From a virus, in IMG/VR virus record IMGVR_UViG_3300008113_000317, positions 1 to 36,231 of that record: a stretch of DNA of 36,231 nt. One strand, 5' to 3'. Under the pieces are notes generated by a model. The model did not search any database. It was not told the origin of the DNA and was given only the letters and a program-made list of their open reading frames with translations. Shown one piece after another: positions 1 through 30,041 of this stretch (position 1 is its first letter; every line of letters starts with the position of its first letter). A program made the position numbers and the translations under genes.

Positions 1-2
1 CA

Positions 3-71
3 GGTGGAAGCAATCTTAAAGATCAGGTAGGAAACCAGTGTTGGTTTTCCAAAAATGATTGGAATATATAG
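3..71 (+). CDS. 3' end of an upstream gene (partial)
   Basis: An open frame enters from the left edge and ends at TAG 69-71, giving about 22 residues ending in CWFSKNDWNI. The other two forward frames stop earlier (taa at 17-19, tag at 28-30), so if a gene enters from the left this is the best candidate. The stop overlaps the promoter-like motif at 65-72, an arrangement also seen at 24934-24944. Too little remains to name a function. Confidence 0.35.
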   Translation, partial: GGSNLKDQVGNQCWFSKNDWNI

Positions 72-72
72 A
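65..72 (+). promoter_or_regulatory. putative late promoter motif TATATAGA
   Basis: TATATAGA, followed by an A-rich tract, 32 nt before the ATG at 97. It is one of ten occurrences of a (G)ATATATA(G/A)A element placed before structural genes in this window. By analogy with the T4 late promoter TATAAATA, read by gp55, it is inferred to be the late promoter of the first unit. Confidence 0.6.
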
Positions 73-96
73 ATAGAAAAAATAATCTAACATAAA

Positions 97-1659
97 ATGT
101 CAAAAAATCTCAAGCAGAGAATAGAAGACCTCATGGCTAGAACAGATTCTCCAGCAGTGATGGAGAACTGCAAATCAGCAATTGCAAAGTTCAATGAATT
201 TGCGGCTCTTAACTTGCCAGCTGCCGTGATGGGAAAGATGGAAGATGTCATCGCAGAAGAATTTATCGGTAGTCTTTCCGACGAAGGAGCTATCTTAGAA
301 TTCTCAGACATCGCTATCAACAATCTAGGTGTTCGCAGCGCGATCGCTGAACTAGGAAAGGTCGATACTTCTAAGAACATGCCACTTCGCTACGTTCTTG
401 AGAAAGTAGGTGTACTTGGACAACAGCCAGAGTGGTTGGTTTATGAGCAGTTCATTTCTGCTTTGAAGCCTTTTGACTTTGAGCCAGTTGTTCTTGAGAC
501 TATCAACAACATCAAAGCAAACGCTAACAAGTACGCAGAAGATATCAAGATTCACAGAGCAATCTACGAAGCAAAAGTTTCTAAAGCAAACTACATCCTT
601 CCTACAGTTCAGCCTGAGATCGACGCTTATCTTTCAACAAGAACAGCTTCTGCTAGAACTCTTTTGATCGAAAAGTTGAATAAGTATATCTTTGATCCAA
701 CGGTTAAGAAACTTTACAACATCATCATCGAGTCAGCTCAATCTTTTGAGATTAAAGCAACAAGCAACGATGCCATCGTAAGAAAAGTGTATTCACCAGT
801 GATCGTAACCAACGAAACCGAAACTTTCGTAGTTCATGGTAAAGTATTCAAGAAAAACGGAAACGATATCACTCCTCTTGAAGAAGGTGAAATTTCTTAT
901 CTTCCAGAAGGATTCGTGGCTCTTGCCAACTTCATCAACCAACCAAACGTTGAGATGGGCGAGAACACAATGAAAATCTTCTCAAGAGACAAGAAAGTTT
1001 CAATCACCGAGTCTGAAGAAGGCGCTCTTACAATTGCAGTAAACGAAAGAACAACTACACCTGAAGAATTCAGCAAAATCTATCTTACTTCAGGATTGTT
1101 CAACTCAGCTGAGATCGATGTTCTTCGCACTGTCAATACAATCGTTGAAAATTGGAACACAATCTTTGAGATCGACTACGTTAAGTCAATCTATTCAAAA
1201 GCATACCCAAATCGTAGAGCAGACATATTCCGCTGCGGAGACAAAATGCACGTCAACACAGTGGATTCTTTAATGAACGAAAATCTATTCCACTCTAACT
1301 GCACAGCTCATCAGTCACGCAACCACATTCTTGAGTTTGTTAACTACGACCTTTCTCGCACCTTTGAAGATCTTATGACTCCTGAAAAGAGAGAAATCGC
1401 GGCTTTGGAATCTAAGAAAGGCGAATACGCTGAAGCAATCCAATACCTCGAAGAACGCTTAAACCTTCTCGAAAGTCAAGAAGAAGCTGTACGCAACGCA
1501 CCTGAAGTTAAAGAACTTATCGAAGCAATCTCTGTAGAAATCACTACATTGAAAAAAGATTACTTTGAAAATCAGACTAAGATCAACTCTTTGACTAAAG
1601 TAACTGAAGGAGTAGGAGCAAACGTTGGTGATTCTGCCGAGTACTTAAAAAAAAAGTAA
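97..1659 (+). CDS. large protein of unknown function, 0-frame product of a candidate -1 frameshift gene
   Basis: This 520-residue protein is not recognised. It is soluble-looking, with no signal peptide or membrane segment. The last ~110 residues (about 400-500) are charged and heptad-like, consistent with a coiled coil. It has a strong late-promoter motif 32 nt upstream and sits directly before gp55, gp4 and portal homologues, so a virion or head-assembly role is an inference from context. The oddity is its end: the last codons are TTA AAA AAA AAG TAA, a run of nine A containing an in-phase A AAA AAG slippery heptamer, and the -1 frame is open for a further 216 codons to 2306. Ribosomes that slip would make a protein of about 736 residues. 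An assembly error in the A run is the main alternative. Start chosen as the first ATG after the promoter motif. Confidence 0.8.
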   Translation: MSKNLKQRIEDLMARTDSPAVMENCKSAIAKFNEFAALNLPAAVMGKMEDVIAEEFIGSLSDEGAILEFSDIAINNLGVRSAIAELGKVDTSKNMPLRYVLEKVGVLGQQPEWLVYEQFISALKPFDFEPVVLETINNIKANANKYAEDIKIHRAIYEAKVSKANYILPTVQPEIDAYLSTRTASARTLLIEKLNKYIFDPTVKKLYNIIIESAQSFEIKATSNDAIVRKVYSPVIVTNETETFVVHGKVFKKNGNDITPLEEGEISYLPEGFVALANFINQPNVEMGENTMKIFSRDKKVSITESEEGALTIAVNERTTTPEEFSKIYLTSGLFNSAEIDVLRTVNTIVENWNTIFEIDYVKSIYSKAYPNRRADIFRCGDKMHVNTVDSLMNENLFHSNCTAHQSRNHILEFVNYDLSRTFEDLMTPEKREIAALESKKGEYAEAIQYLEERLNLLESQEEAVRNAPEVKELIEAISVEITTLKKDYFENQTKINSLTKVTEGVGANVGDSAEYLKKK

Positions 1660-1680
1660 CGGTTATTGGGACAACCCAAT
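1645..1680 (+). other. candidate programmed -1 ribosomal frameshift signal
   Basis: The slippery heptamer A AAA AAG occupies 1650-1656 in the correct phase, immediately before the 0-frame stop TAA 1657-1659. After an 8-nt spacer a hairpin follows: ATTGGG 1665-1670, loop ACAA, CCCAAT 1675-1680. An alternative stem pairs TATTGG 1664-1669 with CCAATA 1681-1686. Heptamer, spacing and hairpin match known bacterial -1 sites such as dnaX and several phage and IS elements. The -1 frame is free of stops from 1656 to 2303. Confidence 0.6.
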
Positions 1681-1904
1681 CCAATAGAACTCTTACAGTA
1701 GAAGATACTGAAGGCAACACATACGAAGTCAAACCAACCGACTTAAAGAACCTCAAAAAGGCCTCCGAATCCAAACCGGGTAACGACCTCGAGATCACTA
1801 CACAGATCGACGGCGCAACGGTAGGGATTAAGGAGGCCAAAGAGTATGTAAAGGCCGAAATAACAGACACCGACTATTCTGGTCCTGGCGCAGGCGAAGA
1901 AGTC
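1656..1904 (+). other. open -1 frame joining two genes (putative frameshift extension)
   Basis: These 83 codons carry no ATG, GTG or TTG start near their beginning, yet read as ordinary protein: it begins VTVIGTT and has a beta-rich pattern with residues such as LTVEDTEGNTYEV. They run in frame into the ATG ATG at 1905. Without frameshifting this stretch would be 245 untranslated nt in a genome where gaps are otherwise under about 130 nt. It is therefore listed as the likely translated link between the upstream and downstream genes. Confidence 0.55.
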
Positions 1905-2306
1905 ATGATGAAAGCTCTTGACTTTACCAGCCGCGGAGACAACGACGACGTAGAGATCTTATACGGCGGCGGAAAGAAAACTTACATTAAGAAGAAGTTC
2001 CTCAAACCGTTAGAGGTTTTTGAAAACAAGAACCTTTCTGAGACTGGTGTATATAACTCAGAAACGGATATACACGCAAATGCTAAAACTTCCGAGAACA
2101 AACCCGACAAGACAAACGGAGTTCTCGCAGCCATTGCCGACAAAGTAACAGAAATACTTTACGGCATGGATGATTTAAGAACATTTATCAAGGACAATTC
2201 TGAAATCTCACACGACGCGGTTGACAAAGCCATCGCAGATTTCAAATCTTATTTAACATCACTTGATTCTGAATCTGAAGTAGCGGCAAGCGGATCCGTA
2301 AACTAA
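1905..2306 (+). CDS. unknown protein, or C-terminal part of the frameshift product
   Basis: From the first ATG this is a 133-residue acidic protein with no recognised domain. A motif ILYGGGKKTYIKKKFLKPLEVF-like segment (residues about 15-37) suggests a small beta-barrel joined to a basic strand, followed by an alpha-helical tail. The frame is open upstream back to 1656, where it meets the slippery site at the end of the previous gene. Two readings are possible: an independent gene starting at ATG 1905 or 1908, or the end of a 736-residue -1 frameshift fusion. No promoter motif or Shine-Dalgarno sequence is seen before 1905, which favours the fusion. It is followed after 6 nt by the gp55-like gene. 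Confidence 0.6.
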   Translation: MMKALDFTSRGDNDDVEILYGGGKKTYIKKKFLKPLEVFENKNLSETGVYNSETDIHANAKTSENKPDKTNGVLAAIADKVTEILYGMDDLRTFIKDNSEISHDAVDKAIADFKSYLTSLDSESEVAASGSVN

Positions 2307-2312
2307 CAAGAC

Positions 2313-2657
2313 ATGGCAAACTACATTGATCCAGAAGAGTTCAGAAAAGAAATACTTCTATCCAAAGAACGAGATGAACTGACGCCCAGAGCAGTAGAGA
2401 TGCTACAGCTGATGGCAAAAGAAGCTTCCAAGAAATTAAAGTACAAAGACGAAGAGGATCGCAAGGATGTAATTGCCTTCGCGTTAATGGATGTCATTAA
2501 GTACTGGAGAAGTTACAACCCAGAAAAATCAAAGTATCCGTTTGCGTACTATACGCAAATCATTAAACACGGATTCGCAAAGGGTTGGAAGAAGCTTCAT
2601 CCAATCAGAGACATCGATAAACTATCACTAAGTAACGAGAACCTCTATAGTCTATAA
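2313..2657 (+). CDS. 55: late-transcription sigma factor, T4 gp55-like
   Basis: The 114-residue protein resembles T4 gp55, the small sigma factor that directs host RNA polymerase to phage late promoters. Supporting features are the order and spacing of a helical segment KLKYKDEEDRKD (about residues 42-53), a second helix rich in aromatic residues, NPEKSKYPFAYYTQIIKHGF (about 70-89) and a basic tail. T4 gp55 has the equivalent pattern ending in KYKNPHAYITQACFNAF, which corresponds to sigma region 2. It is shorter than T4 gp55 (185 residues) and no separate C-terminal clamp-binding peptide can be assigned with confidence. Position among head genes differs from T4. The recurrent TATATA(G/A)A motif is its presumed target. 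Identification is from memory of the family, not an alignment. Confidence 0.7.
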   Translation: MANYIDPEEFRKEILLSKERDELTPRAVEMLQLMAKEASKKLKYKDEEDRKDVIAFALMDVIKYWRSYNPEKSKYPFAYYTQIIKHGFAKGWKKLHPIRDIDKLSLSNENLYSL

Positions 2658-2663
2658 GACAAT

Positions 2664-3149
2664 ATGAGTATCAAAAACAACAAGCCTACAGCAAAGAGTG
2701 GATTTCGTCAAGGATACTATAAACTTAACAATCCTGACAAATACATAGGTGATCCTACCAAGATCATCTACCGTTCTTCGTGGGAGTATCGTTTTTGTAA
2801 ATACTGCGACGATGGTGAAAACGTAGTAAAGTGGTCTTCAGAACCAGTCGGGATAAAATACACAAGTCCCATTGACAATAAACAGCACGACTATTACATA
2901 GACTTTTATGCAAGAATCAAAAAAGGTGATACCGAAGAAGATTACTTGGTGGAAGTCAAACCCGAAGCATCTCTTGAGCGCCCACTCATGGAAAGCGGAA
3001 GCATGACCATGAAAAGGTTGAAAAACTACAACTATGCTTTACAGACTTGGATAACCAACCGAGCGAAGTTTCAAGCAGCTAAAGATCATGCAGAAAGAAT
3101 CGGCTACAAGTTTGTCATAGTCACAGAAAAATTCTTATTCGATAGGTAA
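2664..3149 (+). CDS. 4: head completion protein, T4 gp4-like
   Basis: This 161-residue protein matches the T4 gp4 (gp50/4) family, needed to finish filled heads before tail joining. Characteristic segments are the basic N-terminus, NPDKYIGD (about 22-29), IIYRSSWEYRFCKYCD (about 34-49), VVKWSSEPVGIKYTSP (about 54-69) and YYIDFYARI followed by YLVEVKP. The D...(E)VK spacing (Asp in YIDFY, Glu and Lys in VEVKP) is the active-site pattern of PD-(D/E)XK nuclease folds, to which this family is related. Length is close to the family norm. It is 6 nt downstream of the gp55-like gene and its stop overlaps the next start (TAATG at 3147-3151). Confidence 0.8.
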   Translation: MSIKNNKPTAKSGFRQGYYKLNNPDKYIGDPTKIIYRSSWEYRFCKYCDDGENVVKWSSEPVGIKYTSPIDNKQHDYYIDFYARIKKGDTEEDYLVEVKPEASLERPLMESGSMTMKRLKNYNYALQTWITNRAKFQAAKDHAERIGYKFVIVTEKFLFDR

Positions 3150-3883
3150 TGGCAAAAGTAGACGGTCATATCGACATTAAGAAATACTACGAGGACGCAA
3201 ATAAGTCCAAAGAGAGGACAGGTGCTTTCCAGTTCTTTAGCGACAAGTACATCAAAAGTCCGTTTGAAAATTACTTCATCATAGAAGAAGAGTCCCGTTT
3301 TGAGGCACGCAAACTAAACTTTTTCTTACCGGGTTCGATCTATATGTTTCGATACCCCAACCCAATCACAAAAGATTATTTAAGTTACTACGACAAACGA
3401 CCTATGGTGTTAATCATAGGCACTTTCATCGCCAAGACCACGGGTAGAACTATAGTTCAAGGTATCAATTTGGACTTCATTCCAGAAAAACAAAAAGTGG
3501 ACTTGTTGGATACTTACTACCGTGTATATATGAAAGACTTACTCGGTGCAGAGAAAGATTCTGACTCTGGGCTTGTTGGACAAGCAAAGAACTTGGCGAA
3601 GTACTTAAAAGACTGGTCACTTATGTCGAAGGTCTTTGTTGATCAAGCCAAGATACCTCTTACTTTCGCAATCAGAAACTATGATATGGCAGGAATCTTA
3701 AACCCAGTACTAGTAGAGATCGAAGACTGGTGTATGATACCTTTCTATGTGCCAAAAGAAATACAAGGAAAGGGTTTGGCAAAAGTTTATGCTGAATACA
3801 TAACAGCCAAAAAACAAGCACTTTCTAAGAAAACGCCAACAGACTTGGCAAAAGTACAAGCAAATAAGAAACGATTCAAATAA
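3149..3883 (+). CDS. conserved T4-like head-module protein (possibly gp2-like)
   Basis: The 244-residue protein contains GSIYMFRYPNP, then YYDKRPMVLIIG (about 83-94) and a GINLDFIPEKQKVDLLDTYY-type segment (about 108-127). The pattern of a short 'Y-P-K, YYD-x-P-L-V, G-hN-h-x-Y-h-P' is familiar from a family found in head modules of many T4-like phages. Some members are annotated as DNA end protector, but I cannot confirm that equivalence. A basic lysine-rich tail (last 30 residues) could bind DNA. It lies between gp4 and portal homologues, start overlapping the gp4 stop, which fits a role in head completion or the packaged-DNA end. Function remains inferred. Confidence 0.6.
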   Translation: MAKVDGHIDIKKYYEDANKSKERTGAFQFFSDKYIKSPFENYFIIEEESRFEARKLNFFLPGSIYMFRYPNPITKDYLSYYDKRPMVLIIGTFIAKTTGRTIVQGINLDFIPEKQKVDLLDTYYRVYMKDLLGAEKDSDSGLVGQAKNLAKYLKDWSLMSKVFVDQAKIPLTFAIRNYDMAGILNPVLVEIEDWCMIPFYVPKEIQGKGLAKVYAEYITAKKQALSKKTPTDLAKVQANKKRFK

Positions 3884-3890
3884 ACTAAGA

Positions 3891-3898
3891 TATATAAA
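3891..3898 (+). promoter_or_regulatory. putative late promoter motif TATATAAA before portal
   Basis: GATATATAAAAC occupies 3889-3900 and abuts the ATG at 3901. The TATATAAA core starts only 10 nt before the start codon, so if it works like a T4 late promoter the transcript would start at or inside the start codon. It could instead be a near-leaderless promoter or a relic. Confidence 0.5.
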
Positions 3899-3900
3899 AC

Positions 3901-5514
3901 ATGGCAGGATTCATTGATAGAGCCGGAGTCAATCCGATATTTGGGCAACTCTCAAAAAGTTTGAGAAGGCTCGCCAACTTAGGCATGCAGTACGACGACA
4001 TGGTTATACGCCAGTCTCGTGCGATAGGTGTGACCGAAGCAGAGTTTGGAAACCAAGGCTACTTGCCAGAGGAATTCTTATACTCACTCGCTCTGTCCGA
4101 TGTAGGACAGAAAAAGTTCATCGCATTCTTCGACAAAGACTATAAGTCAAGACGAGAATATCTTCGTCGCTTTGCGATGAACCCTGAAATTGAGTTCATC
4201 TTAGATACCGTTGCCGATGAAGCGATCGTATTCGACTCAGCAAACTATTTTTGTCAACCCGACGTAACCAAAGTCAAAGAGATCGTATCTCCTGAGAACA
4301 TGGAAGAAATCGTCGATGAAATCTGGACGCAGTACAAAAAGATCTATGCCCACTTTAACTTTAACCAAGGTCACGACGCATGGTCATATTTCCGCCAACT
4401 TTTAATCGACGGATTCCTTGCTTTTGAAATCATCTTTGATCCCGAAGGTAAGAACATCATAGGTTTCAAAGAACTTGACCCTATCTCTCTACGCCCAGGT
4501 GTTGAGAAAGGCGGAGATGGTTCATACAAGAAAATCTGGGTTCAGTACGAGGACATTCCTTCAATGAAAAGGGTATTACTTGACTCACAGATCATTTACA
4601 TATCGTACGCAAAAGGAAACTTCGTAAGCCGCGTATCTTACGTGGAAAGAATGGTTCGTTCTTTCAACTTGTTACGCATCATGGAGAACAGCCGTATCAT
4701 CTGGAACATTATGAACAGCTCGTTCCGTCTTAAGATGGTGGTTCCTATCGGAACCAAGTCTCCGCAGAAAGCTAAAGAATCTTTGGCTGAATTGATGTCA
4801 ATGTACAAAGAAGACATCTCATTAAACTTTGATTCTGGAGAACTTTCGGTAAACGGCCAGCCTTCAATGCAGTTCTACAAAAACTATCTGTTCCCTTCTA
4901 AGAACGGAGAATCGCCGGAGATCGAAACCATCGGTGGTGACGGTTATGACTTGAGCGATACCGATGCTCTGAAATACTTTAAAGACAAAGTAATCGAAGA
5001 TTCAAAAGTGCCGCAGTCTCGATTCGACAGCGAGAACGCTGGTAATGTTTCATTCAGCGCAGATGCAATCGACCGCGAAGAAATACGCTTTGGTAGATTC
5101 GTCAATCGCCTTCGCTCGATCTATCAAGAAATCATTCTTAAGCCTCTGTTCATTCAGATGGGTCTTCTTCGTCCAGAACTGGCTGAAGACGAACTCTTTA
5201 AGTCAGCTCTTGCCATCAAGTTCAACAAAGACAACCTCTTCGAAGAACTCAAAGAAATGGAGATCATGACGAAACGCATCGACTTCGCAAACAGCTTGAT
5301 GCAGATTATGGACAAGAGAAAAGACGCAACGGGAATGGACGTCGATGTACCATACTTCGTACCACAGTTCGTCATCGAGAAATATATGAAGCTCGACAAA
5401 TCAGACGTCGACGAAAACGCTCGCCTCAAGAAAGCCAAAGACATCGAAGATCTAGAGTACATGAAGAAGCAACAAGATCTACAGAACCAAGGTGGCGGTA
5501 TGGGCGGATTCTAA
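3901..5514 (+). CDS. 20: portal vertex protein, T4 gp20-like
   Basis: The 537-residue protein forms the dodecameric channel at the head vertex through which terminase pumps DNA and to which the neck attaches. Family marks include RREYLRRFAMNPEIEFILDTVADEAIV (about residues 81-107, equivalent to the gp20 'MA-x-NPEI...D-x-I...EAIV' block), the central ME-N-SR-I-IW helix region (about 259-267), and PEIETIGGDGYDLSDTDALKYFKDK followed by VPQSRFD (about 339-376), which matches the gp20 'EI-TL-GG...D-x-x-YF...L-x-VP-x-SR' block. Length is close to T4 gp20 (524). It ends in a glycine-rich GGGMGGF tail. In T4 gene 20 follows the tube gene; here it is at the end of a separate head cluster and is followed by a strong terminator. 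Confidence 0.93.
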   Translation: MAGFIDRAGVNPIFGQLSKSLRRLANLGMQYDDMVIRQSRAIGVTEAEFGNQGYLPEEFLYSLALSDVGQKKFIAFFDKDYKSRREYLRRFAMNPEIEFILDTVADEAIVFDSANYFCQPDVTKVKEIVSPENMEEIVDEIWTQYKKIYAHFNFNQGHDAWSYFRQLLIDGFLAFEIIFDPEGKNIIGFKELDPISLRPGVEKGGDGSYKKIWVQYEDIPSMKRVLLDSQIIYISYAKGNFVSRVSYVERMVRSFNLLRIMENSRIIWNIMNSSFRLKMVVPIGTKSPQKAKESLAELMSMYKEDISLNFDSGELSVNGQPSMQFYKNYLFPSKNGESPEIETIGGDGYDLSDTDALKYFKDKVIEDSKVPQSRFDSENAGNVSFSADAIDREEIRFGRFVNRLRSIYQEIILKPLFIQMGLLRPELAEDELFKSALAIKFNKDNLFEELKEMEIMTKRIDFANSLMQIMDKRKDATGMDVDVPYFVPQFVIEKYMKLDKSDVDENARLKKAKDIEDLEYMKKQQDLQNQGGGMGGF

Positions 5515-5639: not shown

Positions 5640-5912
5640 ATGGAAATACGCAGATTTGATCGACACGAAAACATGAGTTCCGAAACACTTTCCAAGATCC
5701 TGAATATCATAGGTGATCTTGTAGACATTGAAGCACCAACCAGACAGCTGGAGAACATGCTTTACGGATTCTTCGATGGTTATGACTATACCCAGCAAAT
5801 CATCTTTTCGAAGGATCTTGCAAACGTAACACACGAAAACCCATCACTGGGCGCTAAGATCTCAGAGATCTGTGGTGTTATTGAATCTTACCCTACTTTA
5901 CAAGCTGCTTAA
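5640..5912 (+). CDS. small protein of unknown function (90 aa)
   Basis: First gene after the promoter at 5568-5622. The protein is acidic and probably all helical, with no recognised motif, signal peptide or membrane segment. It contains a regular helix-like stretch LSKILNIIGDLVDIEAP (about residues 18-34). The position in a promoter-headed cluster with the nucleotidyltransferase and clamp loader suggests early or middle expression. Next start lies 2 nt after the stop. Confidence 0.7.
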   Translation: MEIRRFDRHENMSSETLSKILNIIGDLVDIEAPTRQLENMLYGFFDGYDYTQQIIFSKDLANVTHENPSLGAKISEICGVIESYPTLQAA

Positions 5913-5914
5913 AC

Positions 5915-6169
5915 ATGGAAAAACTCAATACATACTTCGCAACGCAAGCAGCCGCTCTTATGGCAGTTGAAGATGAAACTCGCAGACGCGGTTATGATAT
6001 CGTCTATGCTGACCGCCTCTGGGCTGAACATGTTGCATACGGTTCTACCGTCAAGTACAGCTTCCCGCTGACGGTGGTCAAAACAGGAAACGAGGCAAAG
6101 AAGTGGGTACATATCCAAATCTATAGAATGGGATGTGGAAAATACGAACTTAACTTTTACATTGCTTAA
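5915..6169 (+). CDS. small protein of unknown function (84 aa)
   Basis: A compact mixed alpha/beta protein with an alternating hydrophobic C-terminal half (KWVHIQIYRMG then YELNFYIA), suggesting paired beta strands. No family is recognised. It is wedged between another unknown gene and the nucleotidyltransferase, with gaps of 2 and 1 nt, so it is almost surely co-translated with them. Confidence 0.7.
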   Translation: MEKLNTYFATQAAALMAVEDETRRRGYDIVYADRLWAEHVAYGSTVKYSFPLTVVKTGNEAKKWVHIQIYRMGCGKYELNFYIA

Positions 6170-8959: not shown

Positions 8960-10066
8960 ATGAATCTTATATTCGACGGCAACTACCTTTTCTACAAAAC
9001 GCTATTCATCTTTGGAGGTTACGGCTCCAAAGGTAAAGTTCTGGAAGAAAAGAAAGAACAAGAAATGTTCATCAGAAAAGTCGCAACCGACTTTTCACAC
9101 GCTATCCGTACTTTCGGCAATCCCGACCGCATAGTTTTTACAATCGACTCTCGTTCGTGGAGAAAAGAAATCGAAATTGAGGACGGTGCATACAAAGGAC
9201 ATCGCGAAGAAAAGACTTCCACAATCGACTGGGACTCTTTCTATTCCTGTATGAACGAGTTTGGCGAGATCCTCAAAGCCAAAGGCATCATCGTGTCTCG
9301 CGAAGAACGCGCCGAAGGCGATGATCTTATGTACCTGTGGGCTCAGAAATTCTACGAAGAAGGACAAGACTCGGTTATCGTAACCGGTGACCGTGACTTG
9401 ACACAATGTGTTCAGTTCGATGGTAAAAACTTTGTGGTTGTCTACAACCCTAACTCTAAGAGCCGCAAGATCGTAGCTCCTGAAGGTTTTCAAGCTTGGC
9501 TCAAGAACGAAGAATACGATCTGTTCGACGCAAGCACTTATATGAACCGCAGCAAAGACCTAATCGTCGAAGCAACCAGCTCTGTTCCAGTCGAAGAAAT
9601 CGACCGCAAGTACATCATATTCGAAAAGGTAATCACTGGTGATGCAGGTGACGCAGTTCCACCGATCTGGTCCTGGACAAAAGAAGGCAAAACATTCCGA
9701 GTGACTGCTTCCAAAGCCAAACGAATGTACGACATTCTCAACATGGTAAAACCCGTCACTGATGTTTATGACTTGCCTAATCGCGCAGCAGAAGTTGCTA
9801 GCTCAATCGAGGCGACATGCAAACAATCAGCTCCTGCTGCAGTCATCAAGACAAGACTCGAGAGAAACCTTCAGTTGGTATTCCTCGATGATCGCATCTT
9901 ACCTACCGACATACAGGAGAAGTTCCGCTCTTCTTTCGACAAGGCTTGGGAGAACAAAGAGCTGGGAGCTCGCACATACGATATGAACGCTCTTCTTGAA
10001 GGCACTCGATTCGTCAGCAACGGACGAACCTTTGAAGCAGATATTTTCTCACAATTCAAATTCTAA
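8960..10066 (+). CDS. rnh: 5'-3' exonuclease / RNase H (FEN family)
   Basis: This 368-residue protein belongs to the flap-endonuclease family used by T4-like phages to remove RNA primers from Okazaki fragments. Metal-binding acidic residues are visible at D6 (FDGNY), D63 (TIDSRSWRK), E119/D121/D122 (AEGDDL), D144/D146 (TGDRDL) and D228/D231 (ITGDAGDAVPP), which is the full two-metal set, followed by the helix-hairpin-helix-like region. The basic RSWRK and the K-x-H-R at residues 79-82 match the helical arch. T4 RNase H is 305 residues; the extra length is mainly an insert at about 175-215 and a C-terminal extension. Driven by its own promoter at 8889-8943. Confidence 0.9.
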   Translation: MNLIFDGNYLFYKTLFIFGGYGSKGKVLEEKKEQEMFIRKVATDFSHAIRTFGNPDRIVFTIDSRSWRKEIEIEDGAYKGHREEKTSTIDWDSFYSCMNEFGEILKAKGIIVSREERAEGDDLMYLWAQKFYEEGQDSVIVTGDRDLTQCVQFDGKNFVVVYNPNSKSRKIVAPEGFQAWLKNEEYDLFDASTYMNRSKDLIVEATSSVPVEEIDRKYIIFEKVITGDAGDAVPPIWSWTKEGKTFRVTASKAKRMYDILNMVKPVTDVYDLPNRAAEVASSIEATCKQSAPAAVIKTRLERNLQLVFLDDRILPTDIQEKFRSSFDKAWENKELGARTYDMNALLEGTRFVSNGRTFEADIFSQFKF

Positions 10067-28866: not shown

Positions 28867-29160
28867 ATGAACAAGTTCAACGAATTCTTAGACAAACATT
28901 ATAGGAAGGTTTTCTTCTTCCTATTGTTGGTCATCTTTGTAAACACTTGTGGCAACCCAAACAAGTCGGTCAATAAAAGAATCGATGCGTTGACCGTTAA
29001 GATCGATTCTTTGGAAGCAAGTGCTGTGACAAAGAAAGAGTTGACGATCGAAGGACTCAAAGCCGAAAAGAGAATGATCCAGTCGACTGACAGGAAGATG
29101 CTCGACGTTCAGCGCCAGTCGGAAATCGACAACGAGATAAAAAGACTTGAAGAAAAATGA
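28867..29160 (+). CDS. small membrane-anchored coiled-coil protein (97 aa)
   Basis: An N-terminal membrane helix (VFFFLLLVIFVN, about 14-25) is followed directly by TCGNPNKS and a charged heptad-rich segment (IDALTVKIDSLEAS, then GLKAEKRM and EIDNEIKRLEEK). A cysteine just after the helix (residue 27) is at a lipoprotein-like place, but the preceding residues do not form a proper lipobox. Spanin-like architecture is possible. It overlaps the next gene by 4 nt (ATGA). Confidence 0.6.
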   Translation: MNKFNEFLDKHYRKVFFFLLLVIFVNTCGNPNKSVNKRIDALTVKIDSLEASAVTKKELTIEGLKAEKRMIQSTDRKMLDVQRQSEIDNEIKRLEEK

Positions 29161-29978
29161 GACCCAGCCTTGTAAAAGGTTTCATCATATCAACCTTTGT
29201 ATCGCTTTACTTGGTGGTGAGCATCATCTCGACCATCCACGTAATTGACTTCTTTAGACTCTCAAATCCAAACTGGCTCGCTGTATCTCTCGCGATCGCA
29301 TTCGAGATAGGTGCTGCTGCCAGTTTGGCCTCACTCATTGCACTGGATAAGATGAATAAAACTCTTATCTGGTTTTTGTTCATTCTACTGACCGCAATGC
29401 AGATGATGGGCAACACATACTATGCTTTCACTAATCTACAAGACTATCAAAGTTGGATAGAGCTGTTCGGCCTCGTTGATGAAGAACCTATCTACCAAAA
29501 GCGGATTCTATCAATCATAAGCGGAGCCATACTTCCGTTGGTCGCTTTAGGATTCATCAAGTCTTTGGTTGATTACATCAAACCTTCCGAAGAATTACCT
29601 GCCTCTGAGGTTGAAGAAGAACCTGCATTAGAAGTTGCGGCGGTAGAAACAGCGCCTCTACAAAAAGAAGCTGAAAAAATTTGGGCAAAGTTAGAAGAAC
29701 TCAAAAAGGAAGGCAAACTTCCAGCGGATCCTACGCCCGAAGAACTTGCCGAAGAACCTACTGCATTAGCGAATTCTGGGTACACTGAAGAATACGCAAG
29801 TGATGAGGACATGGAAACAGCTTCATTGGTAGATTTTGAAAACTTCATCGAAGAAGAGGCGAGCGCTCAAGCACAAGAAGAACTTATAGTTGAAGAGGCT
29901 CCTTCTGTTGAAGAGATAAATAGAATAGAAGAGAATCAAATATCCGATGAACCTTCTGATGAGAAAAAAAAACTATAA
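29157..29978 (+). CDS. multi-pass membrane protein with long acidic cytoplasmic tail (273 aa)
   Basis: Four membrane helices are visible in residues 1-140: FIISTFVSLYLVVSIISTI, VSLAIAFEIGAAASLASLI, LIWFLFILLTAMQMMG and ILSIISGAILPLVALGFI. The remaining ~130 residues are very rich in Glu, Ala and Pro, with low-complexity stretches such as SEVEEEPALEVAAVE. No family recognised. It is coupled to the 97-residue membrane protein. Together with the preceding genes it forms a membrane cluster whose role (lysis, host-envelope change or virion assembly at the membrane) cannot be read from sequence. Confidence 0.65.
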   Translation: MRPSLVKGFIISTFVSLYLVVSIISTIHVIDFFRLSNPNWLAVSLAIAFEIGAAASLASLIALDKMNKTLIWFLFILLTAMQMMGNTYYAFTNLQDYQSWIELFGLVDEEPIYQKRILSIISGAILPLVALGFIKSLVDYIKPSEELPASEVEEEPALEVAAVETAPLQKEAEKIWAKLEELKKEGKLPADPTPEELAEEPTALANSGYTEEYASDEDMETASLVDFENFIEEEASAQAQEELIVEEAPSVEEINRIEENQISDEPSDEKKKL

Positions 29979-30041
29979 CCAAAGCTAGAATGCATCCTCA
30001 AATCATGCCAGGAGTTTTGGACTAAAATTACATAAACAGAA

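Follow-up and report, generated by a model that had tools for sequence, protein, structure and literature searches.

The window analysed here, the whole 36,231-nucleotide stretch of IMG/VR virus record IMGVR_UViG_3300008113_000317, carries an open reading frame whose last codons, TTA AAA AAA AAG TAA, place a run of nine A's (A9) and a G directly before the stop (Table 1). The -1 frame is open from 24 nt upstream of the G at 1656 through 2306, and the A-run lies within the 28 nt that make up the whole overlap of the two open frames. The first ATG of the -1 frame is at 1905, and its first 83 codons contain no ATG, GTG, or TTG. A previous reading of the sequence alone (hereafter, the sequence-only reading) had proposed that a programmed -1 ribosomal frameshift joins the two frames at this place, and it described the site accurately: the heptamer A_AAA_AAG is in the correct phase, as read off the sequence, the hairpin lies 8 nt 3' of it, and the 216-codon length and start-less beginning of the -1 frame were both correctly given.

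Table 1. Features of the window (positions counted from its first nucleotide).
Feature	Position	Strand	Remark
0-frame ORF, short product of 520 aa	97-1659	+	helical N-terminal region, beta region, C-terminal coiled coil, disordered end
SH3/Tudor-like barrel (NVGDSAEYLKKK/VTVIG...TDLKNL), coding cut by the frame change	1621-1754	+	profile alignment; model of homolog L176
A9-G, putative slippage site (A9 1647-1655, G 1656), holding the in-phase A_AAA_AAG 1650-1656	1647-1656	+	A9 in 49 of 50 distinct contexts
-1 frame extension, 216 codons, fusion product of ~736 aa	1656-2306	+	conserved in ten sequences
0-frame stop TAA, directly 3' of A9-G	1657-1659	+	sequence
6-bp hairpin ATTGGG-ACAA-CCCAAT, 8 nt after the heptamer	1665-1680	+	could stimulate a shift in this phage only
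Second gene ending in A9, 273 aa in 0-frame	29157-29978	+	hydrophobic, membrane-like segments at start
-1 frame tail of second gene	29963-30025	+	G001 counterpart is in-frame and ends in KARMHPQIMPGVLE
Second A9 run; one inserted A opens tail ...KARMHPQIMPGVLD	29964-29972	+	only other A9 in the window

The neighbouring genes encode a gp55-like late sigma factor, a gp4-like head closure protein, a gp2-like DNA end protector, and the portal, which identifies a T4-like late gene unit and agrees with the earlier placement of the gene in a head/neck unit. For the 520-aa protein, no match was found in PHROGs, in Pfam above cut-offs, or among PDB sequences, a fold search with the N-terminal model gave nothing significant, and an Rfam search of positions 1-4000 of the window gave nothing. 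Judging from its neighbours, the protein may have a structural or assembly role in the virion or head. Synteny does not link the gene to the head core, since in related genomes the homologs of prohead protease and gp23 are located at a distance from it. Some phages are known to carry ribosomal protein S21, and a lead that the related phages belong to these carriers was dropped, with no S21 match in five related contigs. In the 238-kb contig of a relative (G001, the contig of L001), at least 22 ORFs (e.g., those at 182315, 177442, 176737, and 175091 on the minus strand) start with MK..K.F(E/D).F(L/I)NE, like T4 capsid-targeting sequences, which suggests a large set of internal head proteins.

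Relatives of the gene were identified in IMG/VR at 75% (L001/L009), 43-48%, and 37% identity, with one more in G007/L152, and no homologs were found among bacterial genome contigs. When the -1 frame was searched as a single sequence, no relatives emerged; an alignment search yielded 20 loci. A9-G is present in all 14 distinct contexts of this group (clade A), in which the G after the run is invariant. In 13 sequences, including the window, the 0-frame stop (TAA, TAG, or TGA) falls 0-2 codons past the site, and in 12 clade A relatives the two frames overlap by 22-58 nt, always with the A-run inside. The codon ahead of the Lys codons is TTA, CTA, or GGA, always A-ending (23.5% of Leu codons in the window end in A). 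The third base is invariant at 5 of 342 degenerate columns (A/G-free third positions, 12 sequences); the consecutive A9G codons account for four of them and one GAA for the fifth. Comparing both frames among relatives, which the sequence-only reading had proposed as a check, reveals selection on both: conservation of the -1 product begins at its very first codons, with 34 invariant columns among ten sequences, 13 of which lie upstream of the first -1 ATG at 1905. In one member (L023), the -1 frame has no ATG. L009 has a second A9-G within its -1 ORF (GKKKLIKK, at ~9871-9879), where a slip would shorten the product.

A profile alignment of the clade A fusion product to in-frame homologs spans the shift point (E=3.4e-6), and an AlphaFold model of one homolog (L176) contains a five-stranded barrel. 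This barrel resembles Tudor domains (TMt ~0.76, rmsd 1.7), with E-values >0.1, as the barrel is only a small part of the query. Since the barrel is in-frame in the homologs and the alignment crosses the junction, the shift point in the window cuts a domain that the -1 product completes. As modelled, the short form finishes in a disordered stub past the coiled coil; the long form would have a completed barrel plus ~180 further residues.

The N-terminal domain was also found in 20 related records, within frames of 760-965 codons, and a further scan for distant homologs yielded 151 stretches, 80 of which were kept. In these homologs (clades B and C), the frame continues past the coiled coil through the SH3/Tudor-like barrel, and A9 lies further downstream, where the 0-frames close with (L/V/S)KK(N/K)-stop. 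Inserting one A opens the way to a conserved tail, KKKLSRNFYFAPK...SKAPDGK in clade B and KKKLRKILSKVWSFAPT...SVAPDGK in clade C, and no start codon precedes the conserved motif in 30 of 31 clade B tails and 4 of 4 clade C tails. The long frames of L153-L172 were initially a candidate for a simple unshifted ancestral state, which was dropped because their 3' ends also carry A9; they remain evidence that the barrel is a single domain. Three members (L214, L215, and L221) have the tail in-frame and keep A9, as do three others (L217-219) in which the clade B tail forms a separate ORF that has a start of its own. In L217, A9 precedes this tail ORF (5808-6035), whose N-terminus, MSSNKILDFFSYINEENAD, fits the capsid-targeting-like pattern F..(F/Y)(L/I)NE, of which there are 22 in G001; by analogy with T4 capsid targeting, this hints that the clade B tail is destined for the head. 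In addition, two clade B/C homologs (G016 28037 and G010 24840) have repeated GYN(L/I/V)xE motifs between low-complexity stretches, which resemble, in sequence, the (L/I)xE sites of prohead proteases.

In the maximum-likelihood tree, clade A (98/99) is apart from the clade B/C group (97/93), and clade B forms its own clade (97/99); L173 and the Lak rows are on long branches, and their placement is unsure. The sites of clade A and of clades B/C are at different alignment positions, indicating that the run moved or arose more than once. Homologs in uncultured phages of 462-735 kb (L173 3843-5735, L175, and L007) have neither A9 nor a long extension at their ends.

The only other A9 in the window is in a second gene, and there too one inserted A opens a -1 tail, ending in HPQIMPGVLD. 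Five distinct relatives have this gene with A9, in another codon phase, and a -1 tail ending in NP(Q/H)(I/V)RPGV, and the matching end in L121 carries A10. Other relatives, G001 and G002 among them, encode this tail in-frame and lack an A-run there.

The length of the A-run in relatives, a further comparison suggested by the sequence-only reading, is strikingly uniform: 71 loci from many metagenomes gave 50 distinct contexts, 49 with A9 and one with A10, and the single A10 context keeps the out-of-frame relation. Near-identical contigs all have A9, so that run length is constant between close copies. What varies at A9 sites is the next base (G, C, or T), the codon phase, and the frame of the tail, which is in the -1 frame, in-frame, or a separate ORF, and never in +1. 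The codon ahead of the run in clades A-C encodes Leu, Val, Ser, or Gly and is A-ending throughout. Long runs are avoided in other coding sequence. In the ORFs of nine related genomes or contigs (1.1 Mb), compared with shuffles that preserve proteins and codon usage and ignore codon-pair effects, we counted 12 runs of at least nine A's vs. 87 expected, and none of at least nine T's vs. 20 expected. By length, observed and expected counts were 345/411 for A7, which is near expectation, 63/144 for A8, a reduction, and 12/54 for A9, a strong one, which puts the break between A7 and A9. Of the 12 long A-runs, this site accounts for nine (one in each genome), the second gene for two, and the G001 -1 ORF for one; in the 348-kb contig G026, this site is the only run of at least nine A's in ORFs of at least 100 codons. 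Therefore, given its near-universal presence at the site and this scarcity elsewhere, A9 is not due to chance or sequencing error. Nine is also the run length with evident counter-selection in many bacteria and that of the Thermus dnaX run (PMC1088944, PMC5009743). The avoidance of long A-runs may partly reflect replication slippage, as also raised by the authors of that work (PMC1088944). Such a run is not entirely confined to this gene, as related phages have a few stretches of at least nine A's close to gene starts. Most A9 runs outside this gene in G001 are just upstream of start codons (e.g., 181328, 175881, and 63292 in plus-strand coordinates), and several of them precede genes with capsid-targeting-like N-termini.

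Overall, a programmed frame change, whether transcriptional or ribosomal, is almost certain at this locus, and the conserved A9 together with the conservation of both frames supports the earlier proposal of two products sharing an N-terminus. At the window junction, both shift models give an identical protein, LKKK-VTVIG. From the sequence comparisons, programmed transcriptional slippage is the best explanation, and a probable one. As the base after the run can be G, C, or T, the conserved unit is the nine-A run and not the heptamer, and a run that is kept while the heptamer and hairpin are not is the pattern expected of RNA polymerase slippage. Transcriptional slippage is favoured by the constancy of A9 while flanks, codon phase, and tail frame vary, by the avoidance of runs of at least nine A's, and by the lack of conserved hairpins; it is further supported by the retention of A9 where the tail is in-frame or separate, by its service to a second gene in other codon phases, and by the invariance of third bases at exactly the four A9G codons. 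Against it, the shift is always to -1 where one is required, and a constant direction has been taken as a sign of ribosomal frameshifting (PMC3711429). Further points against it are the hairpins of four members that stand out from codon shuffles in one or both of two measures, the few long A-runs close to gene starts, and the alternative origin of run avoidance in replication slippage.

The main alternative is -1 programmed ribosomal frameshifting, in which tRNAs would re-pair on A_AAA_AAG or A_AAA_AAA, aided by a hairpin in some members, and which we consider less likely. It would account for the constant direction, the invariant G after the run in clade A, and the in-phase heptamer ahead of the 0-frame stop, such a heptamer being unavoidable within A9. 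However, seven A's would do for this mechanism and nine are kept, the heptamer reads A_AAA_AAC in most of clade B, and A9 persists even though the tail is in-frame in some members. Other ORFs also tolerate the in-phase A_AAA_AAG (87 observed vs. 152 expected, a moderate reduction; 32/27 in G001, no reduction). The hairpin in the window stands out from codon shuffles in its stem (p=0.005) and less so in its MFE (p=0.127), hairpins of the same layout but with different stem bases are present at 9 nt in L023 and L152 (MFE p=0.010 and 0.008), and L033 has another (p=0.025). Against codon-preserving shuffles, however, no hairpin is present in L009, the nearest relative, or in most other clade A members, and clades B and C have no conserved downstream structure (mean z -0.10 over 34 sites). 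Motifs like a Shine-Dalgarno sequence are found upstream of only 4 of the 34 clade B/C sites, and none is evident by eye upstream of the window site. A hairpin-dependent ribosomal model thus proved patchy, and the heptamer and hairpin of the sequence-only reading are not supported as the main mechanism.

Sequencing or assembly error, a pseudogene, or a phase-variable contingency locus at the DNA level is very improbable: homopolymers are generally error-prone and hypermutable, yet the run is nearly invariant across loci from many metagenomes, its one exception keeps the out-of-frame relation, its length is constant within groups of near-identical contigs, and both frames are conserved. Least probable of all are two separate genes with a meaningless overlap, the -1 ORF starting on its own, as the ATG at 1905 and the separate tail ORFs of L217-219 might suggest, because coding conservation reaches the slip site through a domain contiguous in homologs, and the -1 frame of L023 and nearly all clade B and C tails lack a suitable start.

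If transcriptional slippage operates here, the RNA polymerase (probably a host core enzyme carrying the phage's gp55-like sigma factor) would slip on the nine A's and produce mRNAs with differing A counts. Those with A9 would give the 520-aa protein, and those with A10, in which one extra A is in effect a -1 shift, would give the ~736-aa product, completing the barrel and adding a further C-terminal region. We infer that the slip takes place during RNA synthesis, that the short and long forms are both produced, and that they function in assembly of the virion or head. With slippage at A9 setting the ratio of short to long form, run length would be under selection.

Programmed transcriptional slippage is itself a known kind of process. 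In the searchable literature, functional slippage is described for a few bacterial genes, IS elements, and RNA viruses, and the only suggestion of it that we met in tailed phages concerns one Campylobacter phage methyltransferase (PMC2853527). The same literature, from which most subscription journals are absent, yielded no account of slippage in this gene or in these phages. It seems somewhat likely that a large T4-like, often jumbo phage lineage sets the ratio of two isoforms of a head/neck-associated protein by polymerase slippage on exactly nine A's, that the device was kept while its site moved within the gene and the C-terminal module was exchanged, and that part of the lineage also uses it in a second, membrane-protein-like gene. 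Coding sequence in these genomes has no A9, or almost none, besides the conserved one. If this reading is true, dsDNA phages would have an added route to fix protein stoichiometry, in a late gene near the portal, and gene callers would be missing the long protein of this gene family.

Among known systems, the dnaX genes of Thermus thermophilus and, with two ORFs and A10, of Chlorobi likewise have a stretch of nine or ten A's close to where the 0-frame ends and products with a shared N-terminus (PMC1088944, PMC3711429). The Thermus layout is matched by the clade B member L214 with its in-frame tail, whereas the phage gene is not homologous to dnaX, and in most members slippage would be needed for the long form. 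Transcriptional slippage in Shigella mxiE and IS elements likewise joins two ORFs into a long product; these are not homologous either, and the phage site is conserved across several phage clades. The -1 ribosomal frameshift of E. coli dnaX uses the same heptamer in the same phase and has a hairpin, as a few phage members do, but the phage site keeps nine A's beyond the heptamer, its hairpin is not conserved, no Shine-Dalgarno-like element was seen in the phage, and the shift makes the long form here. Lambda G-GT and related tail chaperone frameshifts are also in phage late genes, use the -1 frame, and give two products in a ratio. The gene described here is a different one, and it is found in a different place: it has no PHROGs or above-cut-off Pfam match that would indicate tail chaperone homology, and its neighbours are gp55, gp4, gp2, and portal genes, not a tape measure gene downstream. 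Finally, the Prevotella Lak megaphage homolog shares the N-terminal region at ~23% identity, but it is encoded in a single frame of ~1,690 codons in code 15, with no A-run of seven or more.
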